From: Patescibacteria group bacterium
GTDB taxonomy: Bacteria; Patescibacteriota; Patescibacteriia; SG8-24
Direction of reading: 5' to 3'
Length of the DNA stretch: 32,517 nt
NCBI GenBank assembly: GCA_028714475.1
Contig: JAQTNC010000006.1
Location: 47,553 to 80,069, forward strand
The position numbers and the translations under genes are program-made. The first letter of the stretch is position 1. Every line of letters starts with the position of its first letter. Shown here piece after piece: positions 15,839-27,553 of this stretch. The notes under the pieces were generated by a model. It made no database searches, was not told the origin of the DNA, and saw nothing but the letters and a program-made list of their open reading frames with translations.

Positions 15839-16047
15839 AAAAATTCAAGCCCCTCCGGGGCCGGGTACCCATGGTCTCTGGGATGGCCAATGGGAATTCC
15901 GCGCCCCGACGTCGAATACGTCGGGGCTTGTCCGGGGTCGTCGCGCGTCCTGCGCCGGCTCGGACGCGCTCGCGCTCGGACTTCGCCGCTGGTCGATGCG
16001 GCTCGTCCTCGCTTACGACCCGTTCGATTCCCATTGGCCCTGCCAAA

Positions 16048-16084
16048 TAAAATGTCCGACCCCATTAAGGGGTCGGACATTTTA
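16048..16084. terminator. Terminator-like hairpin, repeat copy 1
   Basis: A perfect 16-bp stem (16048-16063 and 16069-16084) with a 5-nt loop and A/T ends on both sides. It duplicates the tRNA-His terminator as part of the 206-bp repeat. Confidence 0.7.
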
Positions 16085-16253
16085 TGGGGTGGCCAATGGG
16101 AATTCCGCGCCCCGACGTCGAATACGTCGGGGCTTGTCCGGGGTCGTCGCGCGTCCTGCGCCGGCTCGGACGCGCTCGCGCTCGGACTTCGCCGCTGGTC
16201 GATGCGGCTCGTCCTCGCTTACGACCCGTTCGATTCCCATTGGCCCTGCCAAA

Positions 16254-16290
16254 TAAAATGTCCGACCCCATTAAGGGGTCGGACATTTTA
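16254..16290. terminator. tRNA-His terminator (repeat copy 2)
   Basis: The same 16-bp stem-loop, directly following the encoded CCA of tRNA-His on the minus strand. It is the natural terminator of the tRNA transcript and the template for the copy 206 bp away. Confidence 0.8.
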
Positions 16291-16366
16291 TGGGGTGGCC
16301 AATGGGAATCGAACCCATATCAGCGGGACCACAACCCGCTGTGCTAACCGTTGCACCATGGCCACC
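16291..16366 (-). tRNA. tRNA-His (GTG)
   Basis: A full cloverleaf on the minus strand. The 7-bp acceptor stem (16295-16301 with 16359-16365) closes perfectly, the anticodon loop TTGTGGT gives anticodon GTG, and the T arm has GGTTCGATTCC. The CCA end is encoded (16291-16293). The extra G-1 characteristic of tRNA-His is at 16366, opposite C73 at 16294. Confidence 0.95.
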
Positions 16367-25222: not shown

Positions 25223-26548
25223 ATGAGGGCCTTCGAGAGACGGCAAAAAAGAACAACGATCGAGGGTGGCGGACATCGGTCTGCCGCCCTCTTCGGGCTG
25301 TTGGTTGTCGTCGCCCTGCTGGCTTACGCCGTCATCATCGGCAAACTGACGAGCACGGAAGACCGGCTGATTGCTTTCGTGCCCGGCCATGCCGCCGTCT
25401 ATCTCCACGAGCGCAATGGGGATTCCAGCCAATCGCCACTGCTTGATCCGCTCAACACCGGCGCCGTCGAGAAATCGCGCTTCGCCGTCCTTGACGCCGA
25501 GAAACGACTCTCCTGGGCAAGCCTTGTCCGGCTTGGAAAAAATTCCGCGAGGGCGAAAGAAGCCCTGAAACAGAACGGCGCCGTCAAATTATCAAAGGAC
25601 GTTTACGCCTACGGCGACGCCGTCGCCATGAATGCACTCACCGAGGCGGCCGGTCGCGCCCCGTCTTTGGCGGAAAGAGAAACCGCCGCTAAAGCCCTGG
25701 CCAACCTCAACGCCATCATGCCGATGCAGATTTACGCGACGCCCGCGGCCATGTCGGCCATGTCCAGCGACCCAACAAACGCCCTGCCCGTATCCGAGGC
25801 GGTCGTCGGCGGCACCAACAAGGCCGGCAAACTGGCCCGGCTCCTGACCGAAAACGCGGCCGCAGCCGGCATCTCTTCGGCCCAGGCCAAAAACGCCCGC
25901 GCCGCGCGCACTCAAGGTCAGCCCATTTGGAGTGCCGACCTTCGCCCCGGCATCATTAACCCGCTGTCCATGGTTGACGACGGCAGCCGCGCGAATAACC
26001 TCGTTGGCGGCAAGGAGGCGGCAGACGCCCTCTTCAGGTCGTTGAACCAGCCGCTGCAAGCCTCACTTTGGCTTCGGGACGGCTCTCTCGGTTACCAGCT
26101 TAAATTCTCATCCCCCAGGACGGCAGCCCTGGCTGACGCTTGGCTCGACTACCTAAACGCCACCCAGCATTCCACCACCTCCTTAAGCCTGCCGGATGGG
26201 GATATAGCCACCGAGATTCGCCGCAAAAATCGATATTCATTCACTGATGACGGCGGCTGGCTCAAGTTGTCTGATCTAGAGAACCAATCAGCCAACCTGA
26301 ATTTTTGGCTTAAAAAGGAAAAAGATGGCCTAATCGTCACAAATTCACGCAATTCTGGCACTACGCCGGAAACCCAACCCCCGGACATCGCCTGCCCAAT
26401 AATCAACGATGATTGGCTTAAATTAGACAAAAATCTCTCAAAAAACCTCAGGGCCAAAGTTCCGGTCTTGTTGTTCGTTACCAGTCCTGAAGCAGCGAGT
26501 ATGGTTATCTACAGGATTGGGGATAACAACATCATGATTTGTGGATAA
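25223..26548 (+). CDS. Membrane-anchored protein of unknown function
   Basis: A 441-aa protein. After a basic start, residues 21-42 form one membrane helix; the rest is predicted outside. No known motif was recognised. The body reads like a paired alpha/beta repeat of the kind found in DUF3352-type surface proteins, but I cannot assign it. It starts 18 bp after pnp without a clear ribosome binding site. The last 130 codons are visibly more A/T-rich than the rest and run straight into the candidate origin, whose third box contains the stop codon. Confidence 0.65.
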   Translation: MRAFERRQKRTTIEGGGHRSAALFGLLVVVALLAYAVIIGKLTSTEDRLIAFVPGHAAVYLHERNGDSSQSPLLDPLNTGAVEKSRFAVLDAEKRLSWASLVRLGKNSARAKEALKQNGAVKLSKDVYAYGDAVAMNALTEAAGRAPSLAERETAAKALANLNAIMPMQIYATPAAMSAMSSDPTNALPVSEAVVGGTNKAGKLARLLTENAAAAGISSAQAKNARAARTQGQPIWSADLRPGIINPLSMVDDGSRANNLVGGKEAADALFRSLNQPLQASLWLRDGSLGYQLKFSSPRTAALADAWLDYLNATQHSTTSLSLPDGDIATEIRRKNRYSFTDDGGWLKLSDLENQSANLNFWLKKEKDGLIVTNSRNSGTTPETQPPDIACPIINDDWLKLDKNLSKNLRAKVPVLLFVTSPEAASMVIYRIGDNNIMICG

Positions 26549-26665
26549 ACGGGTATATATGTGGATAAGTTTCGAGGTTTTTTGAACATATTTCTTATTC
26601 ACAGGCTTGTACATAAATTTGTATCATCATTTTCTCTGCTAAACAATCGTATTTTTTTATCAATT
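26505..26665. other. oriC: Candidate replication origin (DnaA-box cluster plus AT-rich tract)
   Basis: Five DnaA-box-like 9-mers lie within 100 bp. Two are exact TGTGGATAA (26540-26548 and 26560-26568). Three have one mismatch: 26505-26513, 26518-26526 and 26595-26603. An A/T-rich stretch of about 60 bp follows (26604-26665), fit for unwinding. dnaA and dnaN are not in the window, so this is a candidate only. Gene direction is broadly divergent around it, with exceptions such as pnp. Confidence 0.5.
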
Positions 26666-26736
26666 ACAACCGTTGACCAAACAGAAAAGAGTTGATACAC
26701 TTAAACCAGTGATGAATGCTCCTTACATCTTCAACG

Positions 26737-27075
26737 AGGATCTGAAGAGACCTCGTCCCAAGCCCGTCTTGGAACGATATCTCTCTTCTTTACTCATCCT
26801 TTCGCCACGTCAAGAAATCAAAACAAAATTTCGAAAACCGGCGGTGGTATCCCTCATTTTACCTTAGAGGGTTAATACCGGGGGTCGGTAGAGGAGGTCA
26901 GATCCTTTTCCGCAGGAACTTTGGTTATCAACCCGGCGCAATGCCTTTTCTTCTTCACGAAGGAGGCAAGACACTGCGCCGCTAGATACCACCCTGTGGA
27001 TCTTGCGGCGCAAGTGAGCCTTATATTATTTCAAATCGGGCAAAAACTTCTTGCGCCGCTATTCTTTTTGCTCAA
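26737..27075. ncRNA. Highly structured non-coding region, unassigned
   Basis: No convincing protein is present. A 9-bp long-range pair joins 26737-26745 and 26898-26906. Between them is a hairpin at 26845-26880 with two stem blocks. Downstream, 26975-26982 pairs perfectly with 27005-27012, and 27005-27014 pairs perfectly with 27050-27059. 26935-26940 can pair with 26975-26980. These stems exclude each other. This could be a leader of the DksA-like gene, an independent RNA, or part of the origin. It did not match tmRNA, RNase P, SRP or 6S consensus features I could check by eye. Confidence 0.4.
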
Positions 27076-27181
27076 TATTGCTCAGAGCCTATCCCAACAG
27101 GTCTTCCCGGCCCGCCAATTTGCTAATTTTGACCGGTAACTGTAAGCTTCCATCTGATGAAGTCAATCGACCTAAACGATT

Positions 27182-27553
27182 ATGCAAACCGCTTTCGTCA
27201 AGGAAATGGAGGGCAAACTGGAGGCTGAAAAGGAGCGCTTGACACGCGAGCTCCAAGATTTCGCCAAGCAAAACCCAAAAAACGCTGATGACTATGAGGC
27301 CATGTTCCCGAACCTCGGCGACAAAGAGGACGAGAATGCCGAAGAGGTGGACACCTTCAGCACCAACCTGACCCTGGAGCGAACGCTGGAGGCGGAACTT
27401 CGCGATGTGGAAAAGGCGTTGGATCGCATTAAGGGCGGCAGTTACGGCATCTGCAAGTACTGCGGCAAGGACATCGACGAGAAGCGCCTGCGCGCGCGGC
27501 CAGCGTCAAGCTCGTGCGTGGAGTGCAAAAAATCCTTTACACAGGAGATGTGA
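27182..27553 (+). CDS. TraR/DksA-family zinc finger protein
   Basis: A 123-aa protein with an N-terminal coiled coil (about 5-30 and 65-85) and a C-terminal C4 zinc finger: C91, C94, C112 and C115 (CKYCGKD...CVEC). Family members bind in the RNA polymerase secondary channel and modulate transcription, often with ppGpp. The acidic tip residues of DksA are not evident. It overlaps lspA by one base pair in the TGATG arrangement (stop 27551-27553, start 27553), so the two are co-transcribed and coupled. A large structured region lies upstream. Confidence 0.88.
   Translation: MQTAFVKEMEGKLEAEKERLTRELQDFAKQNPKNADDYEAMFPNLGDKEDENAEEVDTFSTNLTLERTLEAELRDVEKALDRIKGGSYGICKYCGKDIDEKRLRARPASSSCVECKKSFTQEM

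Follow-up and report, generated by a model that had tools for sequence, protein, structure and literature searches.

A candidate stand-alone structured RNA gene beside dksA, shared by many Patescibacteria

Background

Bacterial 6S RNA is one long rod with a central bubble. OLE, raiA, ROOL, and GOLLD are orphan large bacterial RNAs. A large part of bacterial diversity belongs to the Patescibacteria, whose small genomes hold many genes of unknown role.

Here we describe a folded stretch beside dksA in a 32,517-nucleotide window (the whole stretch of DNA analysed) from a Patescibacteria genome. The stretch very probably encodes, as a gene in its own right, a structured non-coding RNA about 360 nt long. 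Judged by sequence comparison, it represents a new RNA family, spread through the Patescibacteria and lacking a catalogued counterpart. Comparative support for the gene's existence is good; that it is expressed, and what it does, we infer.

The locus and its relatives

Two adjacent units, both on the plus strand, define the locus:

26708..27070, plus strand: predicted transcript of the RNA gene, from promoter to terminator (ends deduced from sequence; folding z -5.64, equalled by 0 of 100 shuffles)
27182..27553, plus strand: gene for a DksA/TraR zinc-finger protein (PF01258), the downstream neighbour and a separate unit

The protein matches PF01258, and the DksA and YteA families score below cut-off. 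Protein coding by the stretch itself was rejected: the longest start-to-stop frame is 29-68 aa per sequence in nine sequences, compared by length only, and no one frame is common to them.

Within the family of the host genome, blastn found matching DNA in six other genomes (7 of 10 with its own). All of these matches sit upstream of dksA and adjoin a gene for a protein of about 430 aa, which gave no Pfam match in the two examples tested. Covariance model R1, built from seven sequences, matched 11 of the 12 genomes of the order, including four of the five outside its training set, two of them from another family; the sole genome without a match, G009, belongs to the host's own family.

A scan of public genomes with a DksA alignment then supplied 80 named loci, mostly from Candidatus Uhrbacteria, Magasanikbacteria, and their relatives. 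These loci were picked by dksA, so their linkage to dksA reflects selection. At E<=0.0053, model R2 (19 sequences) matched 53 of the 80, in each case on the strand that carries dksA. Eighteen of the 53 had been used in the model, leaving 35 of 62 as new. By eye, an A-rich core lies at most 600 nt from dksA in nine of the 27 loci that R2 missed; model R3 recovered five of these nine and matched 57 of the 80 loci overall, both at E<=0.01.

Whole-genome searches with R2 matched 109 of 380 genomes of the class, some of which contain sequences that are also in the model, and 15 of 379 phylum genomes. With R3 the phylum count was 39 of 379. Of these genomes 31 lie outside the class; 21 of the 31 have E<0.001, and four of these 21 were used in the model. 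E-values are rough, and at E<=0.01 about four matches among 379 genomes should be false, so these counts are approximate. Nearly all matching genomes have one match; a second, weaker one occurs in G256, G033, and G053. The majority gave none: 271 of 380 class genomes with R2, and 340 of 379 phylum genomes with R3. A strict first filter and divergence may account for part of the non-matches, and loss for the rest. On this sequence evidence the family is common to many Patescibacteria; universality is not claimed.

Promoter, leader, and terminator

The predicted transcript is delimited, and its start marked, by three elements:

26673..26701, plus strand: sigma70-type promoter, TTGACC, 17 nt, and TG-extended TACACT; same layout in relatives
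26718..26729, plus strand: boxA-like motif in the leader, scoring a weak 8 of 12 in the window but strong in many relatives
27005..27070, plus strand: terminator, a hairpin (27005-27014/27050-27059) with a U tract after it; conserved, covarying stem

An extended -10 sigma70 promoter scoring at least 10 of 13 is present at 51 of 54 loci, compared with 5.4% of 1080 shuffles, and its spacer is 17 nt in every one of the 51. The leader motif, GUUCUUU with an A-rich tail, was scored against what we take to be the boxA consensus, and its identity as boxA rests on that assumption. Scores of at least 9 of 12 occur at 42 of 53 loci of the class (8.9% of shuffles; L046 omitted, having no promoter) and at 20 of 22 loci outside it (20.3% of shuffles). 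Among rRNA leaders inspected by eye, one per genome, that of G175 has no clear boxA and that of G437 a loose one.

At the other end, 53 of 54 loci have a T-rich tract, 99-210 nt downstream from the core. A simple terminator scanner, which takes loops of 3-8 only, was silent on 27005..27070.

Repeated DNA was noted at two places in the window. Just past the terminator, the 31 nt of 27084-27114 are identical to an end of a roughly 165-bp intergenic element that has inverted ends of about 40 nt; two more occur in the genome (L003 1499-1664 and L004 1501-1662), and the window seems to hold just one end. Separately, 15879-16309 is a tandem duplication (period 206, 2.1 copies, 99% identical) that adjoins a tRNA-His gene.

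A conserved, covarying fold

The first-pass annotation had called the density of pairing striking, and the arms that it named are all present. Positions 26700-27100 indeed fold far better than chance (z -6.64; 0 of 100 shuffles as good), and the sequences of two relatives gave z -6.3 and z -9.0. The minus strand also folds well (z -5.0), as expected of hairpin-rich DNA; the plus strand is taken as the RNA strand because the conserved promoter points that way. The predicted elements are:

26746..26784, plus strand: hairpin HP1; two-sided changes at 14 of 15 pairs over 28 sequences
26785..26896, plus strand: long stem P2 (26785-26799/26882-26896), with P3 and the A-rich strand inside it; two-sided changes at 12 of 15 pairs over 28 sequences
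26817..26829, plus strand: A-rich unpaired strand, with the core AAAACAAAA in the window and AAAACAAAAACAAAA in many relatives
26846..26879, plus strand: hairpin P3 (GGUA...UACC), from predicted pairs and covariation
26934..26981, plus strand: domain 2 hairpin (CGGCGCA/TGCGCCG), 6-10 bp in 9 of 9 sequences

Compensatory changes across relatives, which the annotation had proposed as a check, are plentiful. In a first alignment of seven sequences, 40 of 84 predicted pairs show two-sided changes. The later alignments were fitted to the model's structure, as the first was not, and so lean towards it: two-sided changes occur in 19 of 36 pairs with 11 sequences, in 30 of 36 with 28 sequences, and in 31 of 36 with 22 sequences, including four from beyond the class. 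In the 28-sequence alignment 90.5% of cells are paired, 0 of 500 shuffles do as well, and slid controls gave 9-17 pairs changed on both sides.

Part of P2 hardly varies. Its ACU/GGU triplet is nearly invariant (A-U in 28 of 28 sequences, C-G in 28 of 28, and a U.G wobble in 27 of 28), and next to it lies the A-rich strand, for which AAAACAAAAACAAAA is the typical sequence among divergent members. In the 3' domain, two hairpins in succession are retained by 9 of 9 sequences.

A leader of dksA-lspA?

The annotation had also pointed to mutually exclusive stems, and suggested a riboswitch-like leader. According to this explanation, the stretch is a cis-acting riboswitch or attenuator of the dksA-lspA operon whose hairpins switch between terminator and antiterminator. 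Within the window both pairings are possible: arm 26975-26982 (TGCGCCGC) can pair with 27005-27012 over 8 bp, its first six bases can pair instead with 26935-26940, and arm 27005-27014 can pair with 27050-27059 over 10 bp. The relatives distinguish the two stems. Among nine sequences, the window included, the terminator stem (27005-27014/27050-27059) has 98.9% of cells paired and two-sided changes at 6 of 10 pairs, with 0 of 500 shuffles as good. By contrast, the alternative stem (26975-26982/27005-27012) has 73.6% of cells paired, a value equalled by 316 of 500 shuffles. The exclusive pairing is therefore a property of the window that its relatives do not conserve, although L008 and L028 have 8-bp alternative pairings, each in its own register, so that a switch confined to single species is conceivable. 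Moreover, most of the structure that covaries is remote from the terminator.

A long-range pair and a hairpin upstream, likewise named by the annotation, are both present:

26736-26745/26898-26907, plus strand: 10-bp long-range pair (earlier given as 9 bp), which stands out in the window alone of nine sequences

The pair is not conserved in the eight relatives, and was rejected as a conserved feature.

Gene order speaks on both sides. In 52 of 54 loci (again, loci picked by dksA) the distance from the end of the core to dksA is 191-558 nt, a terminator precedes dksA, and the order of RNA and dksA is seen again outside the class, where the downstream genes are dksA-lspA in, for example, L166, L167, and L180. 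However, a histidine-phosphatase gene (PF00300) stands between the RNA and dksA in L008, and unnamed ORFs separate them in L009; outside the class, gmk is downstream of the RNA in L165, and a small ORF followed by pheS in L164. A cis role for dksA alone does not account for such intervening or other neighbour genes. Upstream neighbours also change: outside the class the gene is DinG-like or, in L180, recA (the DinG label reflects weak matches, well under NCBIfam cut-offs, with PF13307 over its cut-off in L166 only).

A riboswitch would show conserved mutually exclusive stems and a position within the 5' UTR of its regulated gene; here the terminator stem is conserved and its alternative is not, and different genes intervene or follow. 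With a conserved promoter and terminator of its own, the RNA is quite unlikely to be a leader of dksA-lspA, and a riboswitch or attenuator built on exclusive stems was rejected on covariation together with gene order. A separate RNA gene is the preferred reading. In its support, comparison of sequences offers compensatory changes, a conserved promoter and terminator, a copy number that is usually one, and retention when neighbours change.

DnaA-like boxes and the replication origin

Upstream of the RNA promoter lies a further group of motifs:

26540..26603, strand unassigned: DnaA-box-like 9-mers, TGTGGATAA at 26540 and 26560, and TTATTCACA at 26595

Such boxes (at most one mismatch) are concentrated at -300..-120. 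The 53 class loci hold 131 of them against 3.4 expected (51 loci have at least one; L095 of the 54 was omitted, its upstream sequence being missing), and the 22 out-of-class loci hold 27 against 1.1 expected (18 loci). The window's GC skew goes from negative to positive at 26-28 kb, and a local skew turn occurs at the locus in G011. These observations suit the annotation's proposal of an origin-linked structure, in which the RNA or its DNA hairpins would be a structural part of the replication origin and aid initiation. The boxes are indeed just upstream in most loci, but the RNA itself can be far from the skew minimum: in G175 the skew is lowest, and the boxes cluster most densely, near 190-210 kb, but the RNA is at 395 kb; in G437 the position of the RNA (275 kb) is not that of the minimum. 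The global minimum of G011 (34% sample) lies near 600 kb, not 829 kb. The covariation, promoter, and terminator, moreover, fit an RNA rather than DNA hairpins. Weakened by all three genomes, an origin element is a very improbable identity for this stretch. The cluster of boxes could be a sign either of the origin, in the lineage of the window, or of control of the RNA by DnaA.

Known RNA families

The annotation's proposed Rfam comparison was made for the window and 33 loci with Rfam 15. No family reached its gathering cut-off, permissive thresholds gave only sub-threshold hits, and the known RNA families were rejected as its identity. The only sub-threshold match overlapping a homologue is MIR2275 in L160 (E 0.3). 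Elsewhere, L009 2647-2790 matches a Wolbachia sRNA family on both strands, but its 30 bits are under the cut-off of 65, and it is probably a palindromic repeat. Phage records gave no match to the region.

A literature search of partial coverage found no report of such an RNA, though one may exist elsewhere; term searches within PMC11109978, PMC8321541, PMC11665869, and PMC10633639 yielded nothing on it. We call the RNA a new family because there is neither an Rfam match nor a literature report. The annotation was right, then, to list an unknown structured RNA among its options: the fold covaries, has its own promoter and terminator, and matches no Rfam family.

In the host genome neither 6S RNA (RF00013) nor SRP RNA, small or large (RF00169, RF01854), was found; the models also miss several of 14 control genomes, so that these absences are weak evidence. 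Hfq (PF17209) was also not found, as in all but five of the 14 controls, and Hfq binding through the A-rich strand was set aside with none detected in the host.

The jobs of 6S and SRP RNA thus appear unfilled, and a very divergent 6S (or SRP) RNA, unrecognisable to public models, might fill one of them. The sigma70-type promoter would suit 6S RNA, as would the usual neighbour in the class, DksA, which is named after a regulator of RNA polymerase. The several domains, however, do not resemble a single bulged rod, and the 6S and SRP models have no match in the window region even at E<=10. We consider this identity unlikely, and retain that of a new family.

A proposed role

The following sequence of events would account for the conserved features. 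Transcription would start at the extended -10 promoter, and the boxA-like leader would recruit Nus factors, so that transcription of the untranslated RNA is not ended early. The RNA would then fold into HP1, the branched P2/P3 core, domain 2, and the 3' terminator hairpin, with the A-rich strand predicted to dock against the invariant ACU/GGU part of P2. Finally, the RNA would act in trans as a ribonucleoprotein scaffold with a presumed protein partner.

On present sequence evidence, we favour a protein-bound, trans-acting housekeeping RNA. The process that it serves is possibly, and only tentatively, global control of transcription or translation, as exerted elsewhere by RNAs such as 6S. More speculative, and doubtful as it stands, is the proposal of a Patescibacteria housekeeping RNA as old as the phylum and of the rank of tmRNA and RNase P RNA, which performs a global task (such as 6S-type polymerase control) where 6S, SRP, and Hfq are unrecognisable, and whose expression is tied to DnaA.

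The fold has been kept over several lineages while its neighbours changed, so the RNA must do something important. The family gives experimenters something definite to aim at, and its covariance model can be used to annotate the phylum. Moreover, it raises a testable question: did Patescibacteria replace 6S or SRP RNA?

Comparison with known systems

Like 6S RNA (RF00013), this is a single-copy, stand-alone structured RNA with a sigma70-type promoter; unlike it, it is about 360 nt long with several separate hairpins, and its own genome has no 6S match. It resembles tmRNA (RF00023) and RNase P RNA (RF00010) in length and in its housekeeping-like spread, but the host has copies of both elsewhere (the true tmRNA at G000:C8 and the true RNase P RNA at G000:C18), and neither model matches here; the tRNA-like ends and tag ORF of tmRNA are absent from the region (ARAGORN, Rfam). 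The host RNase P RNA (L001 1501-2088) spans 588 nt for a model of 367 positions, and therefore carries a large insertion.

The leader invites comparison with rRNA leaders with boxA, since both have a boxA-like motif early in a long untranslated RNA; here, however, no rRNA follows, and the window's match to the assumed consensus is weak. With OLE, raiA, ROOL, and GOLLD the RNA shares length, complexity, conservation, and a function that is hard to guess, whereas it has no Rfam match and occurs in Patescibacteria.
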